Source: Neckera pumila
Taxonomy: Eukaryota; Streptophyta; Bryopsida; Hypnales; Neckeraceae
Direction of reading: 5' to 3'
Length of the DNA stretch: 64,000 nt
NCBI GenBank assembly: GCA_963969595.1
Contig: OZ018418.1
Span: 9,677,001-9,741,000, forward strand
Shown: positions 26,061-62,227 of the stretch, piece by piece
Numbering within the stretch: position 1 is the first letter of the stretch
Layout of the letters: each line of letters starts with the position of its first letter
Notes under the pieces: generated by a model
The model's database searches: none
Seen by the model: the letters and a program-made list of their open reading frames with translations, nothing else
Told to the model about the DNA's origin: nothing
Translations under genes and position numbers: made by a program

Positions 26061-26122
26061 GTAAGGACATGCTGAAGGAGGCCCTTCATGGCAGAAAAGG
26101 TAATGGTCTTGAATCATTGCAG

Positions 26123-30398: not shown

Positions 30399-30403
30399 AC
30401 GTT

Positions 30404-32153: not shown

Positions 32154-32352
32154 ATTGGAGTTCATGGGCGCATTGAATGTGCGCTTGATTCTTTTTAATC
32201 TAAAATCTAACCCAAGCCCGATGGGCGTTGCTCTGTATGCATTTCACAAAACTGGTATCTTCTAAGATTAGAAAAAACTACAAGTTGAAATTATGCAACA
32301 AATGTACAAGTTGTAGAAATTAGGAACCTCCCGTTGGAGTTTATGGGTGCAT
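32154..32352. repeat. ~179-bp satellite, block D
   Basis: The monomer interrupted at 13529 resumes here with GGAGTTCATGGGCGC, and about one further copy follows before the gypsy nest. The last bases TGCAT (32348-32352) would be the target duplication of the next element. No satellite reappears to the right within the window. Confidence 0.93.
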
Positions 32353-34160: not shown

Positions 34161-34164
34161 TATA

Positions 34165-34286
34165 TCCAGATTTTACATTAAACATTGTTATTGACATAAA
34201 AACACAAGTTGTTTTATTTTGCGTCCACAAAAATGCGTCTGTTTAGGTTATGCTAACGTCACCTAAAACGCGGGTTTCTTATAGTG
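34165..34286 (-). mobile_element. Fragment of a second CACTA-type element (terminal end only)
   Basis: The reverse complement from 34286 reads CACTATAAGAAACCCGCG then TTTTAGGTGACGT, nearly the same as the TIR of the 13530-32153 element. 'GCGTCCACAAAAATGCGTC' lies inside it. The other end is missing, so only about 120 bp survive, wedged between R4 and the gag fragment R8. It was evidently inserted into R8 internal sequence next to TAC (34287-34289). Confidence 0.65.
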
Positions 34287-36250
34287 TACGGGTCGAATAG
34301 GTTCTATTTTGACCGAGTGATCAAAATCACTCAGATCTGGATCTGTACTTATGGCATCAGATCTGGATCTCCTTCTTTCTTTCCAATCCCTACTCCTATG
34401 TTTATCTATCCGGTCCTTGGTGGAACTCCGGGTTTTTACTCGATAAACAAGACCTTGTTGTACTTTCGGAAGCTCCACCTTTGGTTGTCACTTTTCCAGA
34501 TTTTCAATTCCGGTCGTGGAACCGTAATTGAGTTCGGTCTGGTCTCTAGGTGGAGTTTCTACTTGTCTATAAATTGTCTGTACTTGCTGTGGTTTTTGAC
34601 ATTCCTTGATGTTGTGTCCGTATACTCCACAGTTCTAACATGGTAAGGTTAGAGGCTCACCTTGTCCATATCCCTTATGCGGACAATTATTGGCATAATG
34701 ATGAGGGCTTCTACACAAAAAACAGCATCCAGGGGGAAACCTAAAAGGAGGATAATTACCTTGACTAGATTTGGCTGTGACAGCATGTGGGCTCATGTTG
34801 GCCCGGATCAACTGCTGAGGCACCTTCCCTCTTCCGTAACCTATCTGGATTTGGAACACCGGATTCACTTGTTCTTTGTACTCTTTCGTCTCCGGTAGGG
34901 TGTAGAAAACTCCTTGTTCGTCCACAAAGTGGACTTGCTTCTAGGGTCCTTGATTACACTCGCTCGCGTAATGACCGGGTCTCCCTCATCTTGCGCACCA
35001 GACATTCGCCCGAGTTGTGGGTACAATCCGTCTCAGCATCCGGTTCTCTATTAGGTTAACTTTGATTGCTTCAAGAGGCTCTTGAAGGCTCTTCATGAAT
35101 TTCTTGGAGTCATCATTCTCCATTTTCACCTTGACAATCTTCCGGATGCCTCTATCTAGCTTGTTCCATATCGCTCGCCTGTTGCTAGAGGTCTCCAGCT
35201 TATTGACGGATTTGCTTGTCGTAGTAGTCAACGATTGTGTCACAGTTCCAGAACTCGGAGTCTCAGAGTTGGAAAACTTCCGTCTCCTCCTTTCTTTCTT
35301 TTTGCACTTCTTGCTTTGGACTTTCTTTATCCTTTCACTCTTCTTCACGGATATTCTCAGAGATTGGGCCAAATTCTTGTAATTCTGGGCCGGCTCCATA
35401 GCTTCCCGTAATGTAGTGGGTCAGGCTTGACGAATGTGGAAACCCATTGTTTCCGGAAATCCTGCCACATACCATTCTACTTGGATACTGGGCGCAATGT
35501 CCGTGGTTAGTTTCTTGATCAGATCTTGAACTCTCTGACCGTACTTCTTCATTGACTCGTTGGAACGCATGGTCACATTGCTAAGCCACTTTAGCGCTCT
35601 TGCTCTCCCTCCGACTTCTCTAAAAATTTGGAAGAACAATTCCCTAAGCTGGTTCCAGTTCTCTTGGCTCACATCCAAAACATCTTGGTACCATCTGAGG
35701 GCTTCGCCTTTCAGTAACCTTTTGAAGATTCGCTGCTTGGAGGTTGGATCCTCCTAATTTGCTATAGTGGTGGCCTCAAACTCTCCCATCCAGTCATCAA
35801 CATCCTTACTTTCGTCTCTCCGGAACCTACTAGATTTGAGACGAGTGCTGTTCACCATCGCACTTGCTCCCTCAAATACTGGCTCTACATTAGGTAGGGA
35901 GTCGGACTCTCTATTAGACTCCTCTCGGGCTTCTTCCGATTCTCTCACTGGTTCCGGACTGGCAGAACATTCTGGACGTACTTTCGGTCTGACAACCACT
36001 AAGTCCTCTTCTGATTCTGATGCTGGGAATCAGCATACTACGGTCCTCCTGGTTACTTCTTCTAATCGTGCAGAACATTGTCTTACTGGAGTCCCTCTTT
36101 GAGGCCTATTCATGAAGTAGAAGCTGGCTTTTCTACGAAATCTTACTTCGCTAAACTTTGCACTCAATAGATATTTCTTACAAGGAATTTAACTCTATCC
36201 GTCTTGACACCTTCTAGCTTTGTTTCTAGGTCAACAATAATCTATCAGAA
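34287..36250 (-). pseudogene. R8: gypsy gag region (decayed)
   Basis: Minus-strand frames downstream of the primer site give a Gag polyprotein in pieces. The first has 'RFRRDESKDVDDWMGEFE' (35999-35754). The second has 'NWNQLRELFFQIFREVGG', 'ALKWLSNVTMRSNESMKKYG' and 'IQVEWYVAGFPETMGFHIRQ' (35678-35421), typical retrotransposon capsid. A Lys-rich linker follows (35399-34986), then CCHC-type knuckles ('CCFLCRSPHHYANNCPHKG') and 'YRVKTRSSTKDR' leading towards protease. Stops and frame changes occur throughout. The copy ends at the CACTA fragment; protease and pol are missing. Confidence 0.8.
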
Positions 36251-37074: not shown

Positions 37075-40000
37075 TGTCGTATGCGCAATCTAGGCGTAAG
37101 TATCTTTAGCCACAGTGTTGTGCTAAAATGACACGAGTTATCATCCCAGGGAATTCCAAGATGATGTTGTACATTTCAAGTTTTCCGGATTCTCTTTTCT
37201 CCTCAATCCAATCACCTATTTACTCGTTTTCGGAACTTTTAACTATCCGGAATTCAATCCGAATCCGGTTCTATCCGAAATCTGGTTTCCACTTTCAAAT
37301 CAAGATGGTTTCTTTCACCTCTATTTTACCCTCAGAGGGTCCGCTTTGATCTTTCGAGGGGTAGGGACTTTACCACTCTGGTTCTCATACTCACTAAACT
37401 TGACAAACACAAACAAACACCCAAGTATTTAAAGGAGTTGTAACAAGGAAAGAAGATCCGGATCCTCACAACTTCCTAGAAACCCGATCCGGAAAGCAGG
37501 TCACTTAGGACTCGATCCACTCCTTACCACAACAACAGATCACAGGGTTCCGGAACCTACCGGGGGTGGTTTGTTAAGTGCTAGACCGTTCCGAGGTTGG
37601 CAGACCTTCTGGAAGAGTGGCGACTTCCTCTGGGTGGACGCTTACCTCCGCACGGGTTGACAGCCGGACTCTCTTCCGCTACTCAATCAACCGGATCATT
37701 GTTACGGTAGTTTAAAGGCACTGTGCACTTCCACTCAGTCAGGAATCTAACACTGTCTCAAATGTACCTTTCAAATGGAACCGACTGCCCACGATCCGGA
37801 TTCCTCCTCATCCGTCTTCCCTCACACTCTAGTACAGTCACAAGCATTCATACCAACACTTGAACACGAAGATGAAAATCCGAAAGCTCACTCAACACTT
37901 AGATTAAAAGAAAGGAATGGAATACAAATGAAAATCTGCTAGGAGGGAATGATAGCACAACAAGCTTGCCAGCCCTTAAAAACCCACAAAAAGTCAACAC
38001 CTAAAAGCCAAAAAGAGCCCCAGGAATCCAGGCAGCCAATCAGAGAACCATCCGAGACACCCGGAAAATCTATTGTCGGCTCATTCTAAAAATAAATCTG
38101 GAACCAGGGTCCCAAGCGCAGAAAACCCGTTTCGGAACTGGAGTTCAAAACCTAATCAAAAATCAAAACATCCTAACTAACTACTTCTTCCACAGCTTCT
38201 TGGTACTGCTGCCGCCTTATGTTGCTCCTGTCGTCTTTGTGGGGGTGTTCCAGACACTTGCCCGGGTCTGGATTGGGCGTCGGATCAGCGAAGTTGCCGT
38301 TTTTTCGGTTTCCTTGTCATCGGACTAGAGGAACTCCCTATCCAACTCCATCTCAATGGGTTGCCCCAATGAAGCTCCAATTGGATCCTCGTCATCGCCT
38401 TCCTCCTCTTCCTTGGATGCTCCCTCCATGTGGGTGAAACCTTCCGGATGTGTCTAGGTCGGATTCTCAATCACAAGCATCCGGTTCGTAAAATCTGTCC
38501 AAACCGGAGAAGCCATGACTTTAGGCCCTACGGTCCCCTCTGGTGCCCTTGCCGTGCGCGTGGGAAACGTGATAAGGACCGTCTGCACCGGAGCCTCTTG
38601 AACAATTGGAGCATCCGAACCTTTCTTGGCAACCTCTGCGGTTAACCTCTCCTTTCTTCGTGACGGCCCCGCATGACTAGCAGCTTGAATCGTAACATCC
38701 TTCAGCAAGGCTTGAAGCCCTTTTTCCGATTTGGGAGTCCTTTCGGCGGGGATCGGTTTGGCCGTAGTCCTCCACAATTGTGCACTCGGAACTTCTGGGA
38801 ATCAGGTGAAGTCCATGGCTGTCGGATTGAGAAATCCCAATAGCTTCTTCATCTCTGCCAACACGTTCTCCATCTTGATCTCATAATCCACCAGGATCTT
38901 GAGGATCATGCTTTCGATCACTATGCCTTCTTGAACTAACTTATCATTGAAGAGCCGGTCGCGTGTGATTTGATCCGCGGGTTGTCCCACCAACTCCATC
39001 AGTGCCCTCACAACGTTCACCGCATCCGACTCTCTCTTGGATGCAAACTTTAGGGCTTCCTCCACAACACCCAAACTGGTCTTGAGTTGGATCTTCTCCT
39101 CCTTTAGTTTCCGGATCTGCTCATCCTTCCTACTGAGCAGGGTCGGATTCGGACGCTTTCTAATCTCGCCCATAATCTCATTCAACTCCACCTTCAATTC
39201 ATCCGCTACCAAGCATACGAAGTTAGCCAAGTCCTCGAATTGTTTCCGGGCCTCTTGGAACCATTCTACCCCGGAATCGAACAACTCATTCCCCCCTAGA
39301 TCTGCAAAGGTCCGGCCCGGTTCCTCCATTTTTGAAACTTGCTGCTTCCCTCTTGAGTTCAGATTGGTCGACTTTTGCCGCAAACTTTCCGACTTCTCTG
39401 TCCTTCGCGGCGTCACTTCTAGAACTGCTTCCTCAGCTTGCTTCTCTGGATCCGGAGACAGGCCGTACTTCAGCATCTCTTCAGCGACCTTGAAGGCCTT
39501 GATTTCCTGCTCGCTCACCATCCCGTTGTGGTAATAAAGGTGGAAGAGGTAGGTGCTGATTGGGCTGGACTTGGCCTTCTGCACGCCGTCCGCCAGTTTC
39601 TGCACCATGGCCTTCAATATTCTCCCCCAATGTATTGGCCTATCCTCCATCGCTCCAAAAATGGTGTTGCCCAACATGTTGGTGAGCCGGGTTGGCTTCT
39701 CCGGATACAGGATCAGAACTAAGAACTCCAGCACCTACCTCTGCCTCAAGTCAATACAATCGTGGATCGCAAAACCTTCCTTCGAATTGGGTGGATTACG
39801 GAACTTTCCTTGAACGTAACCGTCATTCCTCAAGGCATAATCGGAACCCACCTTCCGGATTGAGTAGGCTTTCCTCCACATCTGCTCGGTCCACATTGCC
39901 AACTTCCCTCGCTCCGTCAACTCAAACTGATTCGGAGCTCCAGTCATGACTTTGTGGAGCATTGCCTTGTCCTTCAGATTCCACGGCTTGCGCAGCAACC

Positions 40001-40604
40001 TCGCGCATCCCATGCTGTCCAAATCGCCCTCCAAAAGCATTTGCGCCTTTGGATCCGCAGGTACAACCAGATTGAGCAACTTGGCCGTAACTGCCGATCT
40101 CCGAGGTTCCTCCATCCACGATGACAAAATCCTGTTAATCTGGTGCAATCGGCACCCTCCTCTCCTTCCCTCCCTATCCGATCTTAACTCACCAATCTTT
40201 CACTCAACTAACACGCACTCCAAACCTGCAAGAACATACACATCCTCGAGCGGAAGAAAGAGGGAGAAGAAATGGAAAAGAACAGGTTTAAATTGTTGGC
40301 TAGCAATTGACACTCGTTAGGAAGGCCCATAAATGTGCCGCCTTTTGCAAACGGAAGCCTAGTTCCTAGGCCGGAACCTAGGTCGTAGGTTTCCTGAATC
40401 CGGATCACCTTCCGGATTACGGATCCCGTTAAGATCCGTTCCTTACCCATTTTACAGTTTTTGCTAGGCCAAAACTTTCCTACTTTCCTAATTCGGCTAA
40501 CTATTCCGGATTGCTACTTCAGTATATGAAAATTTTGAAAAATCTCACTAATCTATTCCTAAATTAATCCGAAATTCCGGGTTTTGACATTTCGTACTCC
40601 CACA
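37075..40604 (-). mobile_element. R7: 3' LTR, 3.53 kb, encoding an ORF
   Basis: On the minus strand it starts TGTGGGAGTACGAAATG right after the polypurine tract and ends GATTGCGCATACGACA. It follows pol of the same element (44742-40616), so this is a 3' LTR. The whole unit resembles solo LTR R3. It holds LTR-ORF 40115-38181 and a TATA-like TTTTTAAGGGCT near 37971-37984, about 0.9 kb from the LTR end. It shows directly that the ORF lies downstream of pol, inside the LTR. Confidence 0.85.
38181..40115 (-). pseudogene. LTR-ORF protein, R7 copy (645 codons, several stops)
   Basis: ATG 40115 begins MEEPRRSAVTAKLLNLVVP; the same frame runs to TAG at 38181. The N-terminal block has 'LEGDLDSMGCARLLRKPW', 'GAPNQFELTERGKLAMWTEQ', 'VQGKFRNPPNSKEGFAIHDC', 'YPEKPTRLTNMLGNTIFGAM', 'SSPISTYLFHLYYHNG' and 'EEMLKYGLSPD'. 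Next come 'FDSGVEWFQEARKQFEDL' and a coiled coil, then 'LFNDKLVQEGIVIESMILKI' with 'DYEIKMENVLAEMKKLL'. An in-frame stop after 'DLRQR' (near 39735) and a few later stops break it. Its tail ends with a Lys-rich 'STKKLWKK'. The family is not recognised. Confidence 0.8.
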
Positions 40605-40617: not shown

Positions 40618-41700
40618 AAATGTGAAAGTCCCTACGAACATCATCAATGCCCACATCATCAGATTCCATATTCAGTTCATATTTCTTGACTCGGGATTTG
40701 TTAACCCTGGTATCAAGCCATACGCCCTGATGATCTTCCAGCTGCATGGACCCGTTTCTGAAAATTTGCTTGACTCTATAGGGCCCCATCCATTTGGTGT
40801 GTAGCTTACCCAGAAAGATTCTGTAGCGGCTGTCGTATAGAAGTACAAGTCCGCCCACCTTGATTCCGTGGTTCACCGGAAGTTTCTTGTCATGATCCGC
40901 CTTTCTTCTCTCCTGCACTTCCTTGGTGTGGTCCAAATCTATGAGTCTAGCTTCTTCTAGATCTTTGATTGCTAAAAGTTGGATTTCCGGATCACTTGTT
41001 TGCACTGCGTTCCAATTGCTCATGACCCGGTGTGTTTCCATGTCCAATTCGATTCCGTGAACTACTTCCTGTCCAAACACTAAGAAGAAAAGGCTTCTTC
41101 CGGTCGTGTTCTTGTCGGATGTGTTGTACGCATGAACAGCTGATGGAAGCTTCAGATTCCAATCCGTCTTGTATTTGGAAACCATCTTGTTCAGGGACTT
41201 CTCAATAATACCATTAGCCCGTTCCGTCAATCCGTTTGCCCTGGGATTGTACGGAGTTGTCTTCCGGTGCTTGATTAAGTATTTTGAGGTAATATCTTGG
41301 ACCAGGTGGTTGAGGAAATGTAATTCTCTGTCACTGACAAGTTTCAGTGGATGACCAAATCTCATCATGATTTCCGTAAACAGGAAAGAAGCAGTCGTCT
41401 TGGCTGAATAGTTCCGGGTGGCAAGTGCTTCTACCCATTTGGTAGCATAATCCGTGGATAGGATTATGTACCTTCTCTTCCTAGCACTCATCGGAGCAAT
41501 GGGACCGATAAAGTCTATCCCCCATTTTTCAAATGGTGTAAGTGGGATGATAGGAGTTAGTGGCCAGTGATTTCGGAAGGAAGGCGCTTCTGTCCTCTAA
41601 CATTGGACACAACCCTCCACATACGCCTTGACATCGCGGATCAAATATGGCCACCAGTATCCAGCTGAGCAGATCCTGTTGACTGTTGTGATGGCAGCAA
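40616..41700 (-). pseudogene. R7 integrase domain
   Basis: The zinc-binding H...C..C part lies near 41700-41600 (plus-strand 'TTGGACACAACC' encodes the C-x2-C), with one stop after it. The core (41491-40616) starts at 'RRYIILSTDYATKWVEA' and has 'MRFGHPLKLVSDRELHFLNH' and 'RANGLTERANGIIEKSL', giving the D-E pair. The C-terminal region has 'LYDSRYRIFLGKLHTKWMGP' and 'YRVKQIFRNGSMQLED', the GPY/F-like module. The usual 'DQGTHF' motif here reads D-R-E-L-H-F, so this copy is altered at a conserved stretch. Confidence 0.88.
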
Positions 41701-44292: not shown

Positions 44293-44742
44293 CTAAGCGT
44301 CCCGGATCAACTTCTGATAGTTTACATTGTCATGCAGGAGTTGCCCAATGGTGACATTTGCTTGCTGACCCTTGATATCTTGGACGATATCGTATTTGTC
44401 CACCTTAAGTTCCGGATTGATGACAACCGAAACTTCATCAAAAGTGACTACCCGGCGAGCAGATTCCGAAACTCTCGAAGATCCCTCCAAGCTTTCCTGC
44501 ATCTGCTTGCTAATGCTGGTTAAGATCGGGTTACGGTCCACCCTTGTTTCTAACTCTACTTTGGGGTGAATGGGTTCCCTTCTCTTGGAGTGATCAAAAT
44601 CACTAAAACTCGGATTCGGATTTCTATTAGGTCTATATTTATTTCTATGTTTCCTAATTCTACTCTCATTTTCCCGATTTTTGGTGGAACTTTGAGTTGC
44701 TACTCTATAAACAAATCCCTCTCTACTTTCCAGAAGTTCCAT

Positions 44743-45395
44743 CCTTGATTACACTAGAACTCCTGGGTGGGAAATCCGGTTGAGTGTCCGACCTCTTGAG
44801 AGATCTCGCTGCCCTAGTTGGCAAATGGAAGGATTTTAGTTGATGTTGGAACGGACGGGTTCACTTGCAATCGCCTGACTTCGTACAGACAGAACGTGGC
44901 GCGAAGGTTGTTGTATGAAAGGATCATATGGGGGGTCTTTGTGTGACCGGTGATCCGGAGAATTCTCTGGATTGCTGTGAAGAATAAAACCAGATCCGGA
45001 TTAGTGTAGGAGATGGAAGAATAGAGAAGTGGGTCTTCAGCCACTATAAGTCACCGAAGGAGTAGCGGGCCTACCACTCTCAAAATCAAGGGGCGAATCG
45101 TCTGATGGTGAAACAGAGGCAAAATTAAACCAGATGGGAGTAAGAGCGGATGTGAGTTGATAAGACCGGATCGGGAAAGGAGAAGAGGTTCTGATTGTAG
45201 TTTTTGGTGTTGTTGTGTTTCCGGTTGTGGTGTTAGGACCGGAAGAGGAAATATAGGTATTGACTAAGCTTAGAGACCAAATAAGGCTAGATACTTCACA
45301 GAATCTCGCGGGTTCGATCTTTAGAGTCACTTTGTAATACTTTAAAGTGATTTTTGGTAGTATAACTGGGAATTTGCTTGCCCTGTGCTGCAACA
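44743..45395 (+). mobile_element. R5: truncated 5' LTR (3' 650 bp only)
   Basis: Collinear with 53325-53998, the end of the R5 3' LTR: both share 'TAGAACTCCTGGGTGGGAAA', 'GAGAGATCTCGCTGCC', 'GTGACCGGTGATCCGGAGA' and the end GGGAATTTGCTTGCCCT...CTGCAACA. It sits just before the primer site. Its left edge abuts minus-strand R7 pol at 44742/44743 in a head-to-head junction, so about 2.7 kb of LTR with its ORF is missing. No gene. Confidence 0.87.
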
Positions 45396-45405
45396 TACAA
45401 AAATC

Positions 45406-45423
45406 TGGCATTGCTGCCAGGGA
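45406..45423 (+). other. Primer-binding site of R5, tRNA-Asp-like
   Basis: TGGCATTGCTGCCAGGGA lies 10 bp after the 5' LTR end. It differs from the tRNA-Asp complement TGGCGCCGTTGCCGGGGA at five places, four of them C-to-T or G-to-A. It agrees with the R8 site and supports the same primer. Confidence 0.6.
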
Positions 45424-45544
45424 CTCTAAAGCTATTGGTTTTGTTTTGATCCCTACTAGCTAAGGTCAGTTGTTATTTTGATTTCCATGCTATCATTAGA
45501 AATTCAGTTTTTAGAAAGAAAGAAGAGAACCGGATCTCGCACTC

Positions 45545-46681
45545 ATGAGAAGGAGGACAAGAAGTGAAATCAGACGATTGAGGAAGAATCAGCATAGAGA
45601 ATCGTCGGGACTAGGTCTTAGTGATCCGAATATATCAAAACCGGAAGACCAACCCATTTTTGTACCTGCACCTAGAGAAGGAAACGAGAGCCCAAGATTG
45701 GGGAATACACCTCCAACTTCTGAGCGAGTATTGGAACCTGAAGCAGAAGAGCTATTGCTAGACAAAGACAGAATGACCCGGTTGAGGTACAAGCGCTTCA
45801 GAGGAGACAAAAGCCAGGATGCCGATGAGTGGCTGTGCGAGTTTTAATCGACCGTGCTTGCCAATTAGGAGAATGAGGCTGCCCAACAAAGAATCTTTCA
45901 AGGATTGCTGAAGGGGGAAGCTCTCAAGTGGTACCAAGACATTCCGGAGTTGACCCAGAATGATTGGGATCAATTGAGAACAGACTTCCTACAGGCTTTC
46001 TAGGAAGTAGGTGGAGAGGCCAGAGCCTTGGATCGGTTGAGTACACTCACAATTAAGTCAACCAAATTTGTGCAAAAGTATGGGCAGAGGGTAAAAGTGC
46101 TTATGCAGAAGTTGACTACGGAGATTGCTCTTGGTTTGCAGGTAGAATGGTACGTAGCCGGATTACTGGAATCCATGGGATTCCTGATCCGGCAAACAAG
46201 ACCAAGGACGCTTCGGGAGGCCATGGATGCTGCGACCAACTACAAAAACTCAGTTCAGTCACTCCGGAAGTCTTTGAGGAGAAGCAAGAGAAAAGCTAAG
46301 GAGAAGAGCAAGAGGAGTGACCGGAAGTCGAAGCATCGTAAGAAGATTTTGGATTCAGAGAGCAGTTCCAAGTCATCCGGATCGGATGTTTCCGATCCCA
46401 GTTTGTCAAGTTCGAAGGAGGACTGGAGTATTTTTCCTCCTCGGCATTTGTCTAGGAGGGGTCAGAGAGACAAGATCGTCGTTAAGGTCAAGACAAAGGA
46501 TCCGGATTCAAAGAAGTTTATGAAAAAGATCCAAGAATCTCTAGAGGCAATCAAGGTCAACCTCGCTGAGAACCGGAGACCAAGACAGATCGTCCCAACT
46601 TCCCGAGCCAATGTCTGGTGTGGAAGATGTGGAGAACTGGGTCACTACTCGAGCAAATGTCAGAAAGCAGCCCCGAAATAA
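45545..46681 (+). pseudogene. R5: Gag (capsid and first zinc knuckle)
   Basis: From ATG 45545 the same frame runs 379 codons with three stops (from 45845, near 45872 and near 46001). It has 'RLRYKRFRGDKSQDADEWLC', then 'RIFQGLLKGEALKWYQDIPE', 'KYGQRVKVLMQKLTTEI' and 'LQVEWYVAGLLESMGFLI', the capsid region also seen in R8. A Lys/Ser-rich stretch follows, then a CCHC knuckle 'CGRCGELGHYSSKC'. The stop after 'KAAPK' is probably also a mutation, since a second knuckle region follows at 46890-47020. Gag packages the RNA in active copies. Confidence 0.87.
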
Positions 46682-46689
46682 GTTCACTA

Positions 46690-48190
46690 TTTATATCCAG
46701 ACGAAGAAACCTACTACACCATAGCTGTTGAGGAAAAGGAAGAAGTCTACCAGGTTCAACCAACTTATGGGAGAGGAAAAGGTATTGCTGTTCCAATCCG
46801 TTCCAGTGCTTTGAACCGGAACTTTCTACTTGGACCTAGCCAAAGCCCAGTGATGCAGCCACCTATGCGTGTACCTGGATTTTCGGATGGCAAGTGGTGA
46901 TTTGTTATTGTTGTGGAGAACCAGGACACTATGCCAAAGTTGTCCTCACAAGGGACAAGGGCAAGGTGCACCACGGATTTTGCCGTGCCAGAATTGCAAA
47001 GAATACGGACATACCAAGCAAGATTGCTCTAAACTTGTGCAACTATGGCCAATTTACAAGCAAGTGCAAATTCTTCCAAGGGAGCAGACTGCGCTGAACT
47101 ACGGTCACTCAGCCGAAACGGAGAATCCGGAAAAGTGACGGTGTGAGGTGGAGCTGCCAGTTGGAGCGGAGAGCATGGTCAACCGAGTATCGACTTGCAG
47201 TTCCACCAGGAACCAAACCGGACGGTCAATGAAGAGAAGCAAGAGGAAGTTGGAAAGGAAACCGGAATTGAGTAGCGATTTGGATCCGCTTTCTCCAGAA
47301 CAGAGACCGGAACCGAAGGTAGAACAATCCAGGGAAGGAGTAGACCGTAACCGGATTCCGATAAACATCAGTGCAAAGATCCAAAGGGAAATCTCTGGAC
47401 TGGATGTCGTATGGACCTAGAAGACGATTACATTTAGTGATGCTCCACTGATCGTTATTCCGGATGGGTGTACCCGCAAGTACAACATCATCCAGGATAT
47501 TAAGGATCAGAAGGCAAACGTGACTATCGGACAGCTCGTGCATGACAACGTGATGTACCAGAAGCTAATTCAAGATGCCTGGACACGGAAACGGAAGAAG
47601 AAGGTGAAGCTACTCGCAGTGGCAATTAACTTTTCTCAACCGGAAGATGCCGGAGCTCCAGAGGTCACTATAGAGATAGAGGGATGTGTGATTCCCAAAG
47701 TTTCCATCGATGGCGGATCGAGAGTTAACTTGATGCTGGAAGATACAGCATTTGATTTGGGATTCACCATATTTGAAGCCACAGAACAAGTTCTTTGGAT
47801 GGCGGACCAGTCTCGAGTACATCCGGTTGGTAGACTTTCACAAGTGCCAACCTGGATTGGAGAAAAGGACTATCTATCGAACTACGTCATCATCCGTATT
47901 CATAAAGGTAGACCCTTTCCGATGTTTCTCGGAAGACCTTGGTTATATTCTGCCCGGGTTCTTGTGGATTGGGGAGCCAAGGAATTGGTGGTAGGGAAAC
48001 CTTCCACCCGGATTCCTTGGGCCACAAAGAAACATTTGGAAGGAACCAGCAACGTGGATGGTTACACGACGGACTGGACAAATCCGGAAGACTTTGCTGC
48101 GAGCTATTATGTAGATCTATTCGAGCACCAATCCGAGGCAAATAATGGATTCTCCGATGCGGTATTAGAACATGAACCGGGAGACTTCAC
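46690..48190 (+). pseudogene. R5: nucleocapsid tail and protease
   Basis: Two more knuckles are visible in different frames: 'CYCCGEPGHYAK' and 'CQNCKEYGHTKQDC' (46900-47030), so at least one indel separates them. A frame from 47148 leads through 'ISAKIQREISG' and one stop to the protease frame at 47520: 'VSIDGGSRVNLMLEDTAFDL', 'ADQSRVHPVGRLSQVPT', 'RPFPMFLGRPWLYSARVLVD'. D-G-G-S is the active-site motif. The frame then jumps directly into mid-RT (see next entry). Confidence 0.82.
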
Positions 48191-49217
48191 TGACATTATT
48201 TTGGATCACGTTGCTGGACATGAGTGCTACAGTTTCCTTGGATGGATTTTTCGGTTATAACCAGGTATTCATTCGGTGGTGCAATCAGCCAAAAACGACA
48301 TTTACGACAGAGTGGGGGACTTACGCCTTCACCCGGATGCCGTTTGGTCTGTGTAATGCACCCGGAACATTTCAGCGACTCATGATGGACATCTTCAAAG
48401 ACTTCCTTCGGCATTTCATTGAGGTGTTCATAGACGATTTTGCGATTTTTAGCGACCGGGAAAGTCATCTCAAGTGTTTGAGGAAGACATTCCAAAAGTG
48501 CCGAGAGACCAGTTTGAAGCTACACCCGGGAAAATGTTTTTTCGGAATGGGATCCGGAATTTTGCTCGGTCACGTGGTAAGCCAAACCGGATTACAAGCA
48601 GACTTGGAAAAGGTGAAAGTGATGCTTTCCCTGTTACCTCCAACTAGCGTAAAAGAAGTCCGCAGATTTCTTAGATGTGTGGGCTACTACAGATGGTTCA
48701 TCGATGGATATGCCAAGAGAGATATTCCACTCATGGAGCTTTTGAAGAAGGAAATGGAATTGTTTGGACCGGAAAGAGACAGCAGGCCTTTGAAGATCTG
48801 AAGACCCAATTGGCTAAAGCTCTGATCCTATCGGTTCCGGATTAGACCAAGGAGTTCTATGTTAATATCGATGCATCGGGTTGGTGTTTGGGGTCCATTA
48901 TGTGGCAATTCGACGCAGAGAAGTAGAAGAACCCGATTTACTATGCGAGTAGACAAATGAGTTTGGCGGAACAAAATTACACAACCATGGAATGGGAAGC
49001 GCTAGCCGTGGTATATTCCTGTAAGAAGTTACGGCATTATTTACTGGGATACAAGGTAATTTTCCACATGGATCATGATTCTTTGAAATACCTTGTGAAC
49101 AAACCGGATTTGTCAAGCCGGATTTCTAGATGGATTTTGCTCTTACAAGAGTTTGATTATGAAGTTGTAGTCAAGCCTAGAAAGGCAAATGTTTATGCGG
49201 ATTACCTCTCGACGTAG
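48178..49217 (+). pseudogene. R5: RT (N-terminus deleted) and RNase H
   Basis: After 'VLEHEPGD' the sequence continues 'FTDIILDHVAGHECYSFL', so the spacer and first RT blocks (EIDALLEAGF to RKDYFPLP, present in R7 and R9) are missing. RT then shows 'GYNQVFI', 'MPFGLCNAPGTFQRLMMDIF', 'FIDDFAIFS' and 'RRFLRCVGYYRWFIDGYA'. A one-base frame change lies near 48240. RNase H follows with 'EFYVNIDASGWCLGSIMWQF' (after stops), 'YTTMEWEALAVVYSCKKL', 'FHMDHDSLKYLVNKPDLSS' and 'KANVYADYLS'. This copy cannot make an active enzyme. Confidence 0.87.
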
Positions 49218-49235
49218 AGCGGACAAAAATCCGTT

Positions 49236-50640
49236 GTGGATATCTTTGTCGAGTTTCCGGATGAATTTTTGAATCCGGTGGCGAATCCGGTAGTAATAGA
49301 AACTTTAGATTCTCCGTTGGTTGAAGTCTTTTACCTCAACGATGAGTCTGTTTCTGAATATCAGGACATCATAGATTGCTTAGTGAAGTCTAGATATCCG
49401 AAACAGATGAGTCATGAAGAGAAAGAAATTTTCCAAAAGAAAGTGGCTCCTTATACTTTGATTAGAGGAGTCCTTTTTAAGTTAGGAACGGATGACATTC
49501 TCAGACGATGCCTAGAACCCCCGGAACGGAAGAAAGTGATCCAAGCTCTTCACGCGGGAAGTTCAGGAGGGCATTTTGCCTTTGTAAGTACAGTAAACCG
49601 GATCCGATCAACCGGATACTAGTGCCCGAATTTACATAGAAATGTGAGGAATTTTATTCGGAGTTATAATCAGTGTCAGCGGACAAGAGCACCGTCCTTC
49701 CAAAACTACTGGTCACTAACTCCTATCATTCCTCTAGCGCCATTCGAGAAATGGGGGATAGATTTTATTGGACCTATCTTTCTGGTCAGTGGATGGAAGA
49801 AGAGGTACATTATCCTAGCCACGGATTATGCAACCAAATGGATGGAGGCCAAAGCAACACAGAAGAACGATGCGGAGACTTCAGCAAACTTTTTGTTTGA
49901 AGAAATCCTCATGCGATTTGGTCATCCACTCGAGCTAGTTAGCGACCAGGGAACCCATTTCCTCAATGACATTATTGTCAGCCTAACGACCAAGTACCTT
50001 ATCAAGCACCGGAAGATGATTCCTTACAATTCTAAAGCAAACAATTGACGGAGCGGGTAAACAAGATCATTGGTAAGATCTTGAACAAGATGGTTTCCGC
50101 TTACAAGACGGATTGGGATCGGAAACTACCTTCAGCAGTCCACTCGTACAACACCACAGAGAAAACCACAACTGGAAAGACACCGTACTTATTGGTCTTT
50201 GGTCAGGAGGCAATCCATGGAGTGGAGTTGGACGTGGAAACTTTCTGAGTCATGGCAGCTCGGAGTGCGGAGTCAAGGAAGGATACCTTTCACCAACTCC
50301 TCGCCATTGAAGAATTGGAGGAGATCCGGAATACGGCTTTGGGAAGAACCCTAGAAGCGCATAATAAGCGCAAGGAAGACTACGACCGGAAACTTCCAGC
50401 CAATCACGGAATCCAAGAAGGAGGACTAGTTCTCCTCTATGACAATCGTCACAAGGATTTTCCAGGTAAATTGCACACTCGATGGATGGGACCTTTCCGA
50501 GTCAACCAGATTTTCCAGAACGGATCTCTACAATTGGAGAATTTACGAGGTCAGTGGCTTGACACTTGGGTGAACGGATAAAGGGTGAAGAAGTACATTG
50601 CTGCTACTTCTTTTGACAACTCCGAATGATGTTCGCGAGG
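49236..50640 (+). pseudogene. R5: integrase
   Basis: A linker (49236-49500) leads to the zinc region 'ALHAGSSGGHFAFVS' with 'RSYNQCQRTRAPSF' (H..C..C), split by one stop (49621). Core: 'KWGIDFIGPIF', 'RYIILATDYATKWMEA', 'MRFGHPLELVSDQGTHFLND' and, after a frame shift (near 50040), 'TERVNKIIGKILNKMVSAYK'. This keeps the D-D-E arrangement. C-terminal module: 'LYDNRHKDFPGKLHTRWMGP', 'NGSLQLENLRGQWLDTW'. It ends just before the polypurine tract. Two further stops occur near 50249 and 50580. Confidence 0.88.
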
Positions 50641-50652
50641 ATGCTCACAGAT

Positions 50653-50665
50653 GAGGAAGGGGTAA
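50653..50665 (+). other. Polypurine tract of R5
   Basis: GAGGAAGGGGTAA precedes the presumed LTR start TATCGCACCC (TG mutated to TA). Its position after integrase and similarity to the R7 tract support the border. Confidence 0.65.
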
Positions 50666-50939
50666 TATCGCACCCAGAATTTTTAGTTTTCCTTTGCTTA
50701 CCTAAATATTGGAACGGAAACGGGTAATTAGGATCCGGATCTTGTTAGAAGGGCAGAAGGAAACTGAAGATAGACAATGCTAATCCAATAAGGAGAAAAA
50801 TGGATCTGATCCGGTCAGAATGCTAGTATTTAGGAGCGGAATCACCTCCGGATCTCATCTCAAAGCGGATTAGGGTTGGACCGGATTGATATGGACCGAA
50901 CCGGAAAAGGTCATGATGATCTGCCAGGGGTTCTAAGAC

Positions 50940-50949
50940 TATATAAAGG
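50940..50949 (+). promoter_or_regulatory. TATA-like box upstream of LTR-ORF (R5)
   Basis: TATATAAAGG lies about 275 bp before the likely LTR-ORF start. At the matching place R3, R4 and R6 have GGGTACTTAAG about 145-165 bp before their ORFs. It suggests a separate promoter for the LTR-ORF, distinct from the one at 53010. Confidence 0.55.
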
Positions 50950-51214
50950 CTGGTCGTCCTCATTTTCACTCCTTTACTTCCCTTGAGTCCTGGAGCTGAA
51001 CTTGAGCGCTTTTACGCCTTCGTTTGCGCCAGAGCCGTTGTATGTGTGTGTGCTTCAGGCCGAGTACGTCAAAGTGTGTAGGAAAGGTAGAGATTGTGTA
51101 GGTTGCAGTTTTTTGTGTTGTTTTCCGGTTGAAATCGGACAAGAGGAAGTGAGGTACGAGACATGCGAATAGGAGAGAGTGAGGTAGTGACTGGTAAGGG
51201 TCTAATAATTGTCC

Positions 51215-52871
51215 ATGTCCATGCCTCAGCTACGTAAGAGCAGACCGGGAGCGCCCAGTTCCTCCTCCAAGTCAAGCTTTGGAAGGTAGTTCCGGTCATC
51301 CCTATGGTGGAACCGGCCAGGTCCGAGCTCATGGAGGATTTCAACGCAATGGGTTGTCTCGTGTTGATGGATAAACCCTGGGGGTTTAGGGAGGAGCGGA
51401 TGGTGAGAGAGCTGAAGTGTAAGGTATTGAATGAGTTTGACAACACGCTTTGAGGCCGCCCGACCAAATGGGAAGAAGAAAGGTGGAGGGAAGTTTACAA
51501 TTTCCGGATGGGAGGTTCCGGCATGGCTGGACGGAAAGCCAAGTTCATCCATGACAAGTTTCATGGAGAGCTAAGCAACAAGGACGGATATGCGGTCGCA
51601 GATTGCAAGAGCGACCGGCACCGCAATCTCCTCCAATTCTTGGTTCCGATTGTCCACTCGGAGAAGCCAATGAAGATGATTATGACCATTGGCAACACGA
51701 TTTTTGGTTCCCCAAGCGGGGAACAAAAGGTGAACTGGCCCGGATCTTTTCCAATCTGGTGTCCCAGTTGGTGACGAGGATCGAAAAGAATAGGGCCACT
51801 CCTTTGAGTCCCTATCTCTTCCACCTCTACCATCGCAACCAACTCCTCATAGATACGAAGGAGAAAATGTGGAACCTTCAGGAGTCTATCCTGAAGTACG
51901 GAGAGTCGGGTTCGGATGACGAGCAGGAAGAGCGAACCGGGTCCAAATCTAAGACAGAAGAAAAAGACAAGGAAGAGCACCTCCGGATGAGGAAGTGGAT
52001 GAAGACGATGCCTCCTCGCAAGAGAGGAACCCCTCCTACCAACTGGTCAACTCCAGAACAGGGATCGGATGTGGAGGTGCCGGATTTCAAAGACCCGAAC
52101 GACCCGTTCAATCAGTTGACGGTGATTCTGTGCGGGATACTAGCGGATTGGGAGGTCAAAAGGAGGACCCTCTCCAGTGTTGGAGAACTGGTGGATGCAC
52201 CGGCGGATAGCAAGCTATTGGGTAAGGTGGCTCAGTATCTGTCGAATCCGGATGAGCACCAGAGGCAAGAGGCAGAGATTCGTCGGCTTCAGGAGGAAGT
52301 TGACACTCTGAAGGCCGACATGGTAGTGCTCAGAGAGAACAAAGCTGCAGTCCGAGAAATGGTGGAAGCAACTCAAAAGGTGGCCGAGTCTGTGAAGGAC
52401 ACCCTCGGAGAGTCCGGATCCACCACGAACAAGGCAAAATTGTTTGACAAAGGGGTGCATGAGGATAAGAAGGTACTCGGTTCCCGGATAGTTCGGGTCC
52501 TGCCCGACTTCACTGATCGGGTAGAAGCATCATTGGTGGCAGCCAGGGAGGTAGCCAACCGGAAGGACGTCAGCAGCCGAAAGCTGAACGGGTCCATGTA
52601 CTCCCTGGAGATTCCACTTTCAAACCTCTTGTTGCCGGATTCATTCCCAGTCGCAGGATCAAATCCGAGGGAGCCCAAGGATCAGACACCCGAGTCAAGA
52701 AAGAGTCACCGAAGACCTGGGCCTGAGCAACCCATTCATTTGGATTCATCACCAAGATCAAATCTTCCGGATCCTGTTGTCGGGGAGCGGAGCAGGAACC
52801 TGATTGAAGTTTTCAACCAACTGCCCGTGGAACCCAAGAGTCCTACGCTGGGTGGAGGAGTTGGAGAGTAG
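51215..52871 (+). pseudogene. LTR-ORF protein, R5 copy (two frame shifts)
   Basis: ATG 51215 (MSMPQLRKSRPG) opens the frame. It shifts near 51275 into 'VIPMVEPARSELMEDFNAMG' and 'DKPWGFREERMVRELK', 'WREVYNFRM', 'KDGYAVADCKSDRHRNLL', 'HSEKPMKMIMTIGNTIFGSP'. It shifts again near 51740 into 'ARIFSNLVSQLV', 'ATPLSPYLFHLYHRNQ' and an uninterrupted 370-residue remainder. That part has acidic 'ESGSDDEQEER', a coiled coil ('EIRRLQEEVDTLKADM'), 'KLFDKGVHEDKKVLGSRIVR' and a Pro/Ser/Glu-rich tail ending at TAG 52869. One stop (near 51451) also occurs. It is more diverged from the other copies but keeps the same block order. Confidence 0.8.
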
Positions 52872-53009
52872 GTAGGTAGATAGGTAAGAATGTAATTTTT
52901 GTAAGATAGTTAGGACCGGATCAGATGTTGACCCGGTTTGTCCGGTTAGGATTGAACTCGGATGTCCTACATAGATTTCCAGGGGTCTTTTTGCCTTGTA
53001 ATCAAGTTG

Positions 53010-53017
53010 TATATAAG
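53010..53017 (+). promoter_or_regulatory. TATA-like box downstream of LTR-ORF (R5)
   Basis: TATATAAG, 139 bp after the LTR-ORF stop and 981 bp before the LTR end. R1 has TATAAAAGG 1.0 kb before its LTR end. Its place suggests the promoter of the genomic RNA, with R-U5 being the last ~0.95 kb. Confidence 0.55.
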
Positions 53018-53998
53018 TCAAGCCCTGCTTGGGAGCTGCGAGTCCTTTCGCACAAATTTTGTGTATATCTTCTCTTGGCCTCTTGTTGCGTGTCTCTCCC
53101 ATGTGTGGCAGGGTTGTGTGGTGAAGAGTTAGGAAGGCGCATGCGTGTGCGGGTGTGATTTCTCCCTTCGGTGTTCTTGTTTTGATCTTATGTGCAAGTG
53201 AGCGGCTTGTGAAAGAGTTGGGAGTGGATTTTAGCTCCTGAGCATCTCTAAGGTTTAGGATTCTGGGCGAGACAGCCGTTGTTAGGCTAGGGAGATAGGG
53301 AGGGATTCCTTAGTCACGCTAGAACTCCTGGGTGGGAAATCCGGTTGAGTGTCCGATCTCCTGAGAGATCTCGCTGCCTTAGTTGGCAAACGGAAGGATT
53401 TTAGTTGATGTTGGAATGGACGGGTTCATTTGCAATTGCCTGACTTTGTACAAACGGAACGTGGCGCTAAGGTCATTGTAGAAGGAAAGGATCGTACGAA
53501 GGGTCTTTGTGTGACCGGTGATCCGGAGAGTTCTCTAGATTGCTGTGCAGGATAAAATCGGATCCGGATTAATGTAGGAGATGGGAGAATAGAGAAGTGG
53601 GTCTTCAGCCACTATAAGTCACGAAAGGAGCGGCAGGCCTGCCCCTCTCAAAATCAAGGGGCGAACCCTTTGATGGTGAAATAGAGGTAAAACTAAACCA
53701 GATGGGAGTAAGAGCGGATGTGAGTTGATCAGACTGGATCGGAAAGTTGAACGGATCGGAACGTTGACCGGATTGGGAAGGGAGAAGAGGGTCTAATTGT
53801 AGTTTTTTGGTGTTGTTGTATTTCCGGTTGTGGTGTTAGGACCGAAAGAGGAAATATGGATACTAACTAAGCTTAGAAACCAACTAAGGCTAGATACTTC
53901 ACAGAATCTCGTGGGTTTGATCTTTATAGTCACTTTATTATACTTTAAAGTGTTTTTTGGTAGTATAACTGGGAATTTGCTTGCCCTATGCTGCAACA

Positions 53999-54110
53999 GG
54001 CGCCGTAACAATCCGGCACATCCTATTGATTCTAAGTCCTCCTCCAAGTGCTTCCGGACTTCCGGATCCTTAAGAATCGTCGGAGACATCATCCGGGCCG
54101 GCCCTGCCAT
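53999..54110 (-). pseudogene. LTR-ORF protein, R6 N-terminal fragment
   Basis: From ATG 54110 (minus) the frame reads MAGPARMMSPTILKDPEVRK and 'HLEEDLESIGCAGLLRR', nearly identical to the R4 start. It ends at the R5 insertion; the residues that follow in the open frame come from R5. The 37 codons suffice to show that the R6 LTR also carried the ORF. Confidence 0.7.
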
Positions 54111-54571
54111 AGTTTACTGACTTGCTAATCCGGTGCAATTGGCACCGACCTCACCGACCTCTCCTTAGCACGGTCCTAACTCACTACACTTTCACTCTCT
54201 AAGCGCATGCTACAAGTTCAAGAAGAAAGAGAGAGAAGAAATGGAAGCTGAGCCCTTAAGTACCCGACGTTCGGCCGACAGTTCCCCAGGGGAACGGGTA
54301 TGAGACCGTTCCCGTTACAGTGCCCTAGGGTCTCTAGGCCGGAAGGCTACCGGTCGTAGGCTTTCCGGATCCGTCTTCTGTCCTACGACTTTTGTTTGTC
54401 AACGGAATGTTTATCCGGTTTAGGAATTCTAGCAATGCAAGTATTAGCTATTTCTAATTCCTTTCTAGCTAACTGGGATTCCTAGATACTAATAACAAAT
54501 TCCAAAAAATTAGACTATTCTAACCCAGTTTTCTCCTATTTTCTATCTATTGGAGTTTTTGTATTCCCACA
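53999..54571 (-). mobile_element. R6: 5' fragment of a gypsy LTR (-)
   Basis: The minus strand starts TGTGGGAATACAAAAACTCC and matches R4 closely: 'CCAATAGATAG', the GGGTACTTAAG site (54253-54266), and the ORF start. It is interrupted after 573 bp by R5. Flanking TGTAT at 54572-54576 could be its target duplication. It may be the missing start of the R8 LTR (36273-37074); that is inference. Confidence 0.7.
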
Positions 54572-58292: not shown

Positions 58293-61200
58293 TGTCGTAG
58301 CACAGAAAGTACAAAATCCTTCTCTAAGGCCTTAATGGACCCTAAAGTGACTTGTGTATCGTTCCGCAGAGATCTCGGTGTAATTCTACTAAGTGGCCAG
58401 AATGCAGTGAATTGGTATCTCAAAACAAACCCCAAGTACTAGTCTAGACCGGATCCAGCTCCAGTAATCCGGAACCGGAAACTCCTTTCCCGATTATATA
58501 TCCGATCTAGAGTATGTAACTACATGTAATAAATTCGAGTTTAACCTCTAGACCAAGAGGGATCTGCAACTTTGGGCTTCAGGAAGGAAGCTTAACTCCT
58601 ACCCTCTGAGTTTTAGCGTGTCAGAAGGTCCACGATACAAACTTATAAAGAAAACTTTGACAAAAACAATGAGAAAGAGATCGTCCTCACAACTAGACCG
58701 GATGGGCTACGCAGGCTAGCAGGTCACGCAAGAAAGTCTGGATTCTCCTAACAATTACTACAATGACAGACTATAGGACAATCCACGGCCTAGGTAGAGA
58801 AGGGGCGTCAAGAATAAATGGAAGAGCTATAATACTTCTTGACAAAAGCAGCTTCTTGACAAAAGTCAGCTCTAATCCTCGCAAGGAAATCCTATTGTAT
58901 CCTGTCTAATACGCAATCTCTCCAAGAACCGGATTCTTCCTGTATCCGGGTTTCACTTCCTCCTTACCCAAATCTGCACGATCTCACTGCTCTCACGATA
59001 ACACGGACAAGTGCTAAAAGGTACAGCTCACAATTGTAAATTGGAAAAACTCCAACGGCATTTGCAGAAAATTGGGAATACAAAGTATGGAAAATGCTAC
59101 CCGGATCAAACCTAAAATCCGCCTTTAAATACTAAACTACATCTCAAACTCAAAAGTGCAAAAGGCTAAATACAGCTAACGGAATGATACGTTTCATTCC
59201 TAATTTCATGTCTAATTTGGATAATTTAAGCTACAGTCAAAAAGCTCCCACTAAAAGTGGATCTTAGATCCTAAAAATCTGGAATCAACTTGAGTCTTAA
59301 CTCCTTCTAAACTAAAAATATACCTACACATCTACTTGTCAAAATTAGGCATGCAGCCCTACAGTCACTGTCAGAACCTTCACCTACTTCCTACTCTTCT
59401 TCACTGGAGAAAACCTCGTCTTAGCTGGTCCCTTCCAGGTCAAGGGCTTCTTTCCGATCTGCGGCCTAGTAGTTTGTTTGGACCGGACTTTTGCCTTCTC
59501 TTTGGCCGCCTTCGCCTTTGTCGCTTGGGTCTCTGCCAAGGCCTGATCGGGATCCGAATAAGGTTCAGAATCCTGGTCGGAACCGGATTCCTCTTCATCA
59601 TAGTCGGAATCCTCTTCTTCTTCCTCCTTCTCCTGAACCTTGGTGGATTTCCTTTTGGCCAATTGTAGTTCAGGAGCCTTTTTCTTCTGCGGGACAGGAG
59701 CAGGCCTTGCTACCTTGCTCTGAGGTGTTGCATCTCTTCCAGCCGGTTACCTGATTAGGCCCTTACTCGGTGAGCTGGATGAAGTGCTGCGACCGGCTCC
59801 AGTCTCTGTTTTCACCACGGACTGCATCAGGGCCGTCATCTTCCCTGCATCTTCACACTGCACCTTCTTTCCGGGAGTCTTGAGAGAAGACTTGGAGGGT
59901 GAGAGGGCACCAATCTACTTTACCTTGGTACTCTCCCCTGGAATGGACCCTCCTGGTCTGGTTGCCAGTTCCGGTCCTTGTGCCTTTGCTGGATCCGGTC
60001 TTGTCACCTTCATGACCTCCAACTCATCATTCTCCGGATCCGGGTCGGTGACTTTGGTAATCTCCATCTCCGTTTACTGCACTTGACTTGTCTTGGTTTC
60101 CTGGTGCTCTTCTGGTTTAGGTAGGTCTGGTTGCTCGTGAGAAGTCTCACCTTTACCCTTGTCCTCTGCTGTTGGCTGCTGAACTGGTTCATGATCCGGT
60201 TCCGACCTCGGTGCAGGATCACTTTGAGGATTTACCTCGCCCATCACTTCTCGCAGCTGCTCCAGTGTGGATTCCATCTTCTTGTGATAAATCACCATAG
60301 CCAGTATGGGCTTCTGATGTAGTTGTCGTCCTTCCACCATTACTTGTTGGTCAAACAAGTTAGCCTTGTTAACAACTTCACCCGAATGGGTGATGAAATC
60401 CCGAATTTGTGATGAAATCCCGGATTTGGGAGATGGTGTCTCGTGTCTGCGTGGAGAACGTTTTCTCCTTCTCCACCTCTTCTGTTTTCTGGCGCAACTC
60501 CTGTTTAAGAGTGGCCACTTGGCTGGAAAGCTTTGCCAATTCTTCCTTGTTTTCATTCTTCTCCTTCTCTCGGGTAAGCCGTATTACCCGGGTTAAAGCT
60601 TGAGCTGGGTGGATGGCGCCCACTGTGGTGCAGATGGTCTGTATCACCCCTCGCTCCTTCTCATACCGGTTCCTGAAATCGCTCAATTCTCGGGTGATTC
60701 TTTCTAGCGGCTCGTCTCTCCAGATCGGATCGGTATCCTTGGTCTGCTCTTCCTCTACCTGCCCCTTTCCTCTCGTTTTCTCACCCTTATTATCATTCTC
60801 ACCCTCATCCTCATCGTCCTCAGACTCACTCTGCTCATCTTCATTGCCTCCCTCATCTAAGGATTCTTCCTCATTTCCGGTCTCAAGATCTAAGTCCAGA
60901 ACTTCAAATTCTACCAGGGCAGCAGCGGCCTCATACTCTACCTCTTCATCTTTTGTCATCACCCCCTCCGAATGATACAAATGATACAGGAATGGACAGA
61001 TGGCGGAAGGCTTGGCCTTCCCAACATTATTCATCATTTTCAGTACTTAGTCCTAGATGACCACTCCCCAATCTAGTTTCCGGTCTCCAGACAATGCGCC
61101 AAATATTGTGTTGGTCAATGTTCGAGAAACTCAGCATGGCCTTTCCGGGTTGAGAATGGCTAAGACATACTATAACAACCGCTTCTCTCTCTGATTGATA

Positions 61201-62227
61201 CAGTCGGTGACTGAGAACCCGTCTTTCTTACTAATTGGGTTTCGGAACTTACCCACCATATACTGGTGTTTCCGGGATGCACTTCCTTCGCCTTCTTGGT
61301 TGAATACATAGACCTTCCTCCACATGTCAGCCGTCCATTGCTTGGGCTTTGCACGAATTGTGGTCGCGGCGTGAGTTGGCACTCCAGGCCTCAATTCCAC
61401 CACTACTGCTTTGCTTCTGAAGTCCCACGGTCGGATGAGGAACCCAGCGCACCCCATCTGCTCCAAGTCTTCCTTCAGCTCTACCAGCTCCAGCTCCTCC
61501 TTGGGCAATCGTGGCGTCACATACCGGAGCGAGATGGTGGCTCCCCTGCTCTGACTTGCAGCCATCTCTCCTTTCGTTAGGATGCAGCCAGTCTACTCTC
61601 GAAAATCGAAAAAAGAATGAACCTCACGATTCTCTCTCTCCCTTTCAGCTGTGCAAGCACTAATGCTAAATTGGGATGCTAGCAGACCTCTCTCTTGCGC
61701 TTAATGTTCCTCAAGCACTCTTTTCCGCAGTCCGTCAACTCAAAACCCAATACTGATGCACAGACCAGAAACCAGTAATGGTGCACGTTGCTACAACTTT
61801 CAGTTAGGGCAGGAAAATGTAAGTGACCAGTCTCTGGATGGATGGGGTTTAAGAGAGCCAATCCTAGTTGCTCCTAATGATTCCCCTAATCCAGGCTTTG
61901 CCCGTTAAACCTGTCCGTTTAGGATTTCCATTCACTAATGATTAGAACGTTCCCGTAGTTCCCTAGGGTTAAGTAGGTCACCATTCGATGCCGATTTCTG
62001 TTACCCCTTTCCTGATCCGGTCTAGGCAAATTTGAACTCCGGTTCCTTGTTTCCGGTACATTTGGTTAGCCTTTACATCGATTTCTGATCAGTTCACTTC
62101 CGGTTTCCGGTTCTAAACATTAGACGGTCTATAATTATCTTAAAATCAAAAAAATTTATTGCTAAGAAGAATATTATTCTTTCATTTATATTTTAAATTA
62201 GTAAAAGTGGATTTTCAGGTTCTGACA
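58293..62227 (-). mobile_element. R2: 3.94-kb solo LTR of a Ty3/gypsy element, carrying an ORF
   Basis: The minus strand starts TGTCAGAACCTGAAAATCC and ends TGTGCTACGACA. A perfect 5-bp duplication GTTGT flanks it (58288-58292, 62228-62232). It is collinear with R1 throughout, including ends, ORF and the 'CGAGATCTCTGCGGAACGAT' region. It splits an exon of the TNPA-like/FCP1-like gene: 'TALEEGQ' lies on one side and 'PSLQATTVVESQ' on the other, in one frame. No gag-pol. The R-U5-like part 58293-59383 and the 5' part 61566-62227 hold no gene. Confidence 0.9.
59384..61565 (-). pseudogene. LTR-ORF protein, R2 copy
   Basis: From ATG 61565: 'MAASQSRGATISLRYVTPRL', 'LKEDLEQMGCAGFLIRPWDF', 'PKQWTADMWRKVYVFNQEG', 'KDGFSVTDCINQREKRLL', then stops near 61165 and 61050, 'KAKPSAICPFLYHLYH' and an acidic region. 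A 19-bp tandem duplication (about 60390-60430) shifts the frame within 'SQIRDFIT'. The rest follows in the new frame: 'ANLFDQQVMVEGRQLHQKPI', 'HKKMESTLEQLREVM', the linker, and the basic tail to KKSRK (59384). It is about as long as the R1 copy and closest to it. Confidence 0.8.

Follow-up and report, generated by a model that had tools for sequence, protein, structure and literature searches.

The long terminal repeats (LTRs) of Ty3/gypsy retrotransposons in Neckera pumila, 3.3-3.9 kb in length, contain a protein-coding gene, which we describe here from a window of 64,000 nucleotides (C11:9677001-9741000) and from searches of the assembly (339.5 Mb, 18 contigs). A complete element carries the gene region in both of its LTRs, solo LTRs keep the gene after loss of the interior, and the gene was under purifying selection while the elements multiplied, decaying about neutrally once inserted. 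What is new is the position of an accessory gene of an LTR retrotransposon inside the LTR; the accessory open reading frames (ORFs) of plant elements are internal in the parts of the literature available to us (PMC7264820; PMC11963269; PMC3485330). As for function, we propose, in what we judge an evenly balanced case, that the gene encodes a nuclear DNA-binding factor that acts against silencing (or as an activator) in the manner of VANC21, with the solo LTR as a helper gene.

The gene lies within the LTRs of intact elements

The element R5 of the window ends in a 3' LTR (50666-53998, plus strand, 3333 bp) whose ends match the LTRs of intact elements; its first letters, TATCGC, stand directly behind the purine tract AGGAAGGGGTAA and its last are CTGCAACA. 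The internal region (45396-50665, plus), with gag-pol remnants, is about 620 bp shorter than in its relatives, and starts with a putative primer-binding-site (PBS) region (45396-45424, plus) that adjoins a 3' remnant of the 5' LTR (44742-45395, plus). This remnant repeats the final ~690 bp of the 3' LTR (85% identity with 53307-53998) and is the sole alignment of the R5 LTR to the window by blastn at E<=1e-8. The ORF inside the 3' LTR (51221-52871, plus; start set by comparison with an open copy in locus L026) is broken by stops and a frame change, its longest open part spanning 438 codons (51555-52868).

With the R5 LTR/PBS junction as query, 628 candidates were found, of which 40 were scored; among these 40, we examined 11 places other than that of the window itself. 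A full-length LTR lies upstream of the PBS at eight of them (C11:1662061, C9:4562809, C3:31485177, C3:31524565, C3:7376624, C2:40823703, C5:4245962 and C8:10481065), the LTR is interrupted or truncated at three (C2:4155293, C3:17280659 and C9:14281159), and a short LTR excluding the ORF occurs at none of the 11. Both LTRs are complete in three of the eight, namely E1 (C3:31485175-31502990), an inverted, near-identical duplicate of E1, and C5:4245962-4261821, which thus represent only two independent insertions. The LTRs of E1 (3316 and 3312 bp, 96.6% identical) start with TGTCGC, and the element has GTTGG at either side; its 3' LTR stands directly behind AGGAAGGGGTAA and terminates in GA, not CA. 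At C5:4245962-4261821, both LTRs are full length with the ORF region in each, the target duplication is absent and the flanks are rearranged. The ORF of the R5 family lies wholly within the LTR, at positions 557-2206 of 3316 bp. These elements bear out two points of a preliminary description made from the window, that the R5 unit is an LTR, as judged from the repetition of its end before the primer site, and that each full element would hold two gene copies. They also refute an ordinary internal accessory ORF beside a short true LTR of ~0.7 kb, a reading that the repetition of only the last ~690 bp of R5 before the PBS could suggest and that we consider practically excluded by the elements with two full 3.3-kb LTRs and by 5-bp duplications around solo LTRs that are 3.3-3.9 kb long.

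The domains of E1 (L026, L027) follow the gypsy order RVT_1, RT_RNaseH, Integrase_H2C2 and rve, and the elements share with Ty3/gypsy retrotransposons long direct repeats, TG..CA-type ends and, on solo LTRs, 5-bp target duplications. The Athila/Tat lineages are marked by a lineage-specific reverse transcriptase, a second RNase H (Tat) and an env-like ORF (Athila); a scan of E1 frames at E<=0.1 detected neither a second RNase H nor a chromodomain.

The surroundings of E1 (C3:31484000-31532000, L026-L030) form a large inverted duplication, or palindrome, with arm pieces of ~4-5 kb each that are 99.6-99.98% identical. Inverted pairs ~35-36 kb apart also occur in C5 (4249185/4285247) and C6 (147277/182558); these palindromes may be genuine or may stem from the assembly. 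The pol region of E1 contains a nested copia element (C3:31493525-31498810, L026/L027; RVT_2, rve, gag_pre-integrs), and R5-type LTRs are nested in opposite direction inside R5-type elements at C5:4254665-4257984 and C2:40829006-40830999. In L025, an 824-codon stop-to-stop frame without a Pfam match (1641-4112, plus) adjoins the 3' LTR of an R5-type element.

Solo LTRs retain the gene

Apart from R5 itself, the seven best ORF matches (L002-L008) comprise six complete LTRs and an interrupted one, L005. The ends of the R5 internal region have no match in the 0.4-0.95-kb flanks of the six, three of which have perfect 5-bp duplications (TCTAA, AATGT and AAACT) and three duplications with one mismatch. 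The solo LTR L006, with AATGT at either side, has a 554-codon open frame with no masked codon of 550, an actual case of the earlier expectation that solo LTRs would stay protein-coding. In a search with the LTR of the window element R1, at least 33 of the best 40 of 392 candidates, R1 included, span practically the whole LTR, the other 32 or more at 91-94% identity to R1, and at least one same-strand pair among the 40 is close enough to belong to one element. Solo LTRs are usually taken as gene-less scars; here one can be an uninterrupted protein-coding gene, so that the formation of a solo LTR need not end the influence of the element.

Contig C11 (12.35 Mb of the 339.5 Mb) holds 19 of the 40 listed R5-ORF matches, a share biased because the query itself is from C11, versus 4 of the 40 listed R1-LTR matches. 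It may be a repeat-rich chromosome, perhaps a sex or accessory one.

Conservation and selection

Open copies of the R5 family have a frame of ~550 codons, fewer than the 650-710 given in the preliminary description. The N-terminal ~140-155 amino acids are 35-43% identical between families (tblastx, window units). In 16 R5-family copies, differences common to at least two copies fall 152/129/266 on codon positions 1/2/3, compared with 137/107/133 for singletons and, in the flanks, 57/57/57 and 79/89/98 for the differences that copies share; this third-position excess points to selection in the multiplying lineage and to roughly neutral decay after insertion. In line with this, the median ratio of nonsynonymous to synonymous rates (dN/dS, NG86) is 0.26 (interquartile range 0.22-0.31) over 120 pairs, which, coming from related copies, are not independent, against medians of 0.55-0.70 in the flanks and of 0.83 and 1.07 in shifted frames. 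That the flanks do not reach 1 is presumably due to a predominance of transitions (99 to 11 between the LTRs of E1). Between the two LTRs of E1, the dN/dS of the ORF (0.48) falls within the flank range (0.44-0.84), as expected after insertion. An MG codon model beats omega fixed at 1 by 269 log units. Three R1-family copies give dN/dS of 0.18, 0.17 and 0.36, the flank baseline being from the R5 family only, and their differences are again concentrated at third positions (e.g., 92/77/224). A ratio near 1, which would have spoken against the gene, was thus found in neither family.

At least one codon is masked in 13 of the 16 R5-family copies, leaving three without any (the 5' LTRs of E1 and C3:7376624, and L006), and the R1 frame has three stops. 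Such decay would suit a frame that is passively carried along, or arose by chance, and has no selected function; this is contradicted by an ORF dN/dS that does not equal the flank baseline, by a third-position excess along the whole frame, by low dN/dS in two families and by a domain kept between families at 35-43% amino-acid identity, and we regard it as very improbable.

Promoters and the position of the gene in the LTR

Two candidate TATA boxes bracket the gene in R5: P1 (TATATAAAG, 50942-50952, plus), upstream of the ORF and ~275 bp into the LTR, and P2 (TATATAAGT, 53010-53018, plus), immediately past the ORF stop. P1 is present in 15 of the 16 R5-family copies (top 1.5% of flank 9-mers) and P2 in 14 (top 5%). 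In the R5 family, P1 would probably serve as the gene's own promoter and P2, behind the gene, as the start of the genomic RNA, so that the gene would belong to U3. The preliminary description had put the ORF in U3 throughout; that it lies entirely in the LTR stands, and the TATA boxes before and after it favour U3 for the R5 family.

Alternatively, the ORF would lie in R/U5: full-length genomic RNA would start at P1 and yield the protein from its 5' end, and gag-pol would be expressed either from P2 or through splicing, with a GGTGAGT upstream of the ORF that resembles a splice donor. Of the two TATA boxes, P1 is better conserved; a TATA-like/pyrimidine block precedes the ORF in three other units and one fragment of the window (weakest at 40604), and a GGTGAGT-like sequence is found before the ORF in three of these four. 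Downstream of the ORF, a TATA box is possible in the unit at 32353, is present in only R1 among three R1-family LTRs, and is absent from the LTRs at 26776-30398 and 37075-40604, which belong to two other families; both of these last observations count against the reading favoured here. On the other hand, P2 is kept just past the stop codon in most R5-family copies, and a start there would yield gag-pol RNA free of a 550-codon upstream ORF. We regard R/U5 as a tenable but less probable placement than U3.

The predicted product and a motif shared by the elements

Modelling supports a product whose N-terminal domain is helical and conserved, and which also has an acidic linker, containing a motif that resembles a nuclear localisation signal (NLS), and a coiled coil; membrane segments were predicted in none of 83 LTR-ORF sequences. 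The predicted fold of the N-terminal domain aligns with DNA-bound VANC21 (PDB 9lnj) over 186 residues at 12% identity and modest Z. The ORF had been called unfamiliar, which holds with regard to Pfam and is qualified by this resemblance.

The elements are also rich in a CCGGA-type motif. This motif was chosen after seeing the data, as CCGGAT was noticed on reading and the VANC21 match then prompted a count of WCCGGW against dinucleotide shuffles. Observed and shuffled counts are 17 vs 1.4 in the flanks and 13 vs 3.1 in the coding part of the E1 5' LTR, 10 vs 1.3 and 8 vs 2.4 in those of R1, 12 vs 2.7 in 28605-30440, and 31 vs 4.5 in the R5 internal region. There is no excess in satellite DNA (1 vs 0.45), L037 (2 vs 2.3), L041 (4 vs 3.8), L022 (2 vs 3.0) or the copia element nested in E1 (1 vs 0.8); an apparent excess at 14000-28000 of the window (18 vs 8.2) arises because that stretch runs into the LTR at 26776, and vanishes upon trimming to 14000-26700 (3 vs 7.4). 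In the window, WCCGGW has a density of 3.6-8.8 per kb in six LTR units that are complete or almost so. Among 4-mers, either CCGG or CGGA ranks first in each of the five element sets listed, and neither reaches the top five in a 25-kb background. The excess is thus common to LTR families that blastn does not align.

A possible anti-silencing role

According to our proposal, the LTR protein would enter the nucleus, dimerise and bind the CCGGA-type motifs over-represented in these elements, and would then reverse methylation silencing of its own family, or activate it, like VANC21 does for VANDAL transposons; a solo LTR would act as a stand-alone helper gene. Several observations weigh against it. 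Foldseek gave no significant match for models of the product and VANC21 is not among the structure matches listed for the full-length model, so that the resemblance depends on a single domain model, with a Z in the range that chance similarity between helical folds can produce. Neither DUF1985 nor DUF287 is among the Pfam families listed at E<=10 (the best 25 of 52 and the best 25 of 40 in two scans), and DUF1985 was not found in a genome search in which control queries gave no signal either. The motif excess covers coding sequence too, inserted copies lose CCGG sites no less than other CpG sites (0.58 vs 0.64 still intact), and most gene copies are broken.

The gene might instead encode a nuclear protein without any anti-silencing role that, for instance, exports or packages element RNA, simply activates the LTR promoter, or directs where integration occurs. 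Selection of this kind, an NLS-like motif and a coiled coil would then be expected as well, and the low identity and modest Z of the VANC21 match, like a motif excess that is not limited to noncoding DNA, would fit easily. However, the one structural match is a DNA-bound anti-silencing protein of a plant transposon, and one short motif is in excess in LTR families between which blastn finds no alignment. This alternative seems to us less probable than the anti-silencing role, and yet a serious one.

More tentatively, an anti-silencing gene may have moved into a retrotransposon LTR; recombination to a solo LTR would then remove gag-pol and leave a stand-alone gene, driven by its own promoter, that protects every CCGGA-rich copy in trans through its product. 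If so, the genome would hold a reserve of anti-silencing genes scattered among its solo LTRs, and DNA transposons and retrotransposons would have a VANC-like domain in common. Were the gene VANC-like, gene and target motif would be found together on a few kb of retrotransposon, and the DNA-methylation arms race could be tested in a second class of elements.

Comparison with known accessory genes

The sag gene of mouse mammary tumour virus is a U3 gene encoding a superantigen that acts on T cells, and it was the LTR-encoded gene that turned up in our literature search. Both are protein genes in an LTR and hence occur twice per element, but sag belongs to a mouse retrovirus, whereas ours belongs to plant-type gypsy elements, has a predicted soluble, NLS-bearing, VANC-like product, and would, in the R5 family, probably lie in U3.

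VANC proteins (VANC21, VANC6) are described, in the part of the report available to us, as accessory proteins of Arabidopsis VANDAL transposons, VANC21 reversing their methylation silencing (PMC5735166). The LTR gene is likewise an accessory gene of a plant mobile element, and may resemble them in its predicted N-terminal fold and in the excess of one short motif in its host. VANC hosts, in contrast, are Mutator-like DNA transposons, and the VANC target consists of tandem repeats in noncoding DNA, while here it would be a CCGGA-type motif also found in coding DNA; DUF1985 and DUF287 are likewise missing from the Pfam families listed. The LTR gene is thus probably VANC-like in its working yet no member of the VANC family by the tests made, and we do not file it there because it is encoded in gypsy LTRs rather than in a Mutator-like transposon.

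Accessory ORFs of plant gypsy elements (env-like in Athila; antisense TRP28 in Grande, RIRE2 and Retand) are placed internally in the available parts of two reports, where TRP28 is proposed to bind DNA (PMC7264820; PMC11963269). These are likewise conserved extra ORFs of plant Ty3/gypsy elements, one of them also a proposed DNA binder, but the Athila ORFs have membrane segments and TRP28 is antisense, while the LTR gene is in sense orientation. Retrosat2, RIRE3 and RIRE8 of rice, by partial description, have LTRs of >3 kb and an ORF0 upstream of the gag-pol ORF in elements of >12 kb (PMC3485330); they are thus similar in LTR length and in an extra ORF ahead of gag-pol, but ORF0 is given as upstream of that ORF, not placed in the LTR.

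Other LTR units and satellite DNA in the window

R1 (8809-12676, plus) is a solo LTR of 3868 bp with TGTCGG..ACGACA ends and a GCCCT duplication; its ORF of ~711 codons occupies 9474-11607 (plus). The solo-type LTR at 26776-30398 (minus, 3623 bp) has a 5-bp duplication in which the two copies (AACGT/AGCGT) differ by one mismatch; an open part of its ORF lies at 28605-29921 (minus; 438 codons, 436 amino acids from the ATG). Two 3' LTRs had been placed behind pol, which is right for R5 and applies also to the unit at ~37075-40604 (minus), behind a purine tract and an integrase (40619-41596, minus), with an ORF at 38802-40199 (minus) in two open parts of 154 and 310 codons. The other, at 58293-62227 (minus, 3935 bp), is instead an R1-family solo LTR with GTTGT at either side and a broken ORF at 59369-61565 (minus). 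An LTR unit with a degraded ORF (32353-34400, plus; 3' end approximate) starts with TGTAGGAATAC, and a fragment with the 5' end of an LTR and the ORF start (53999-54571, minus) is 84% identical to 32353-32924.

R1 is inserted in an array of a ~178-bp satellite, with copies ~75-85% alike, at 1-8808 and 12677-13529; one extra satellite unit, at 32155-32353, adjoins the LTR that starts at 32353.
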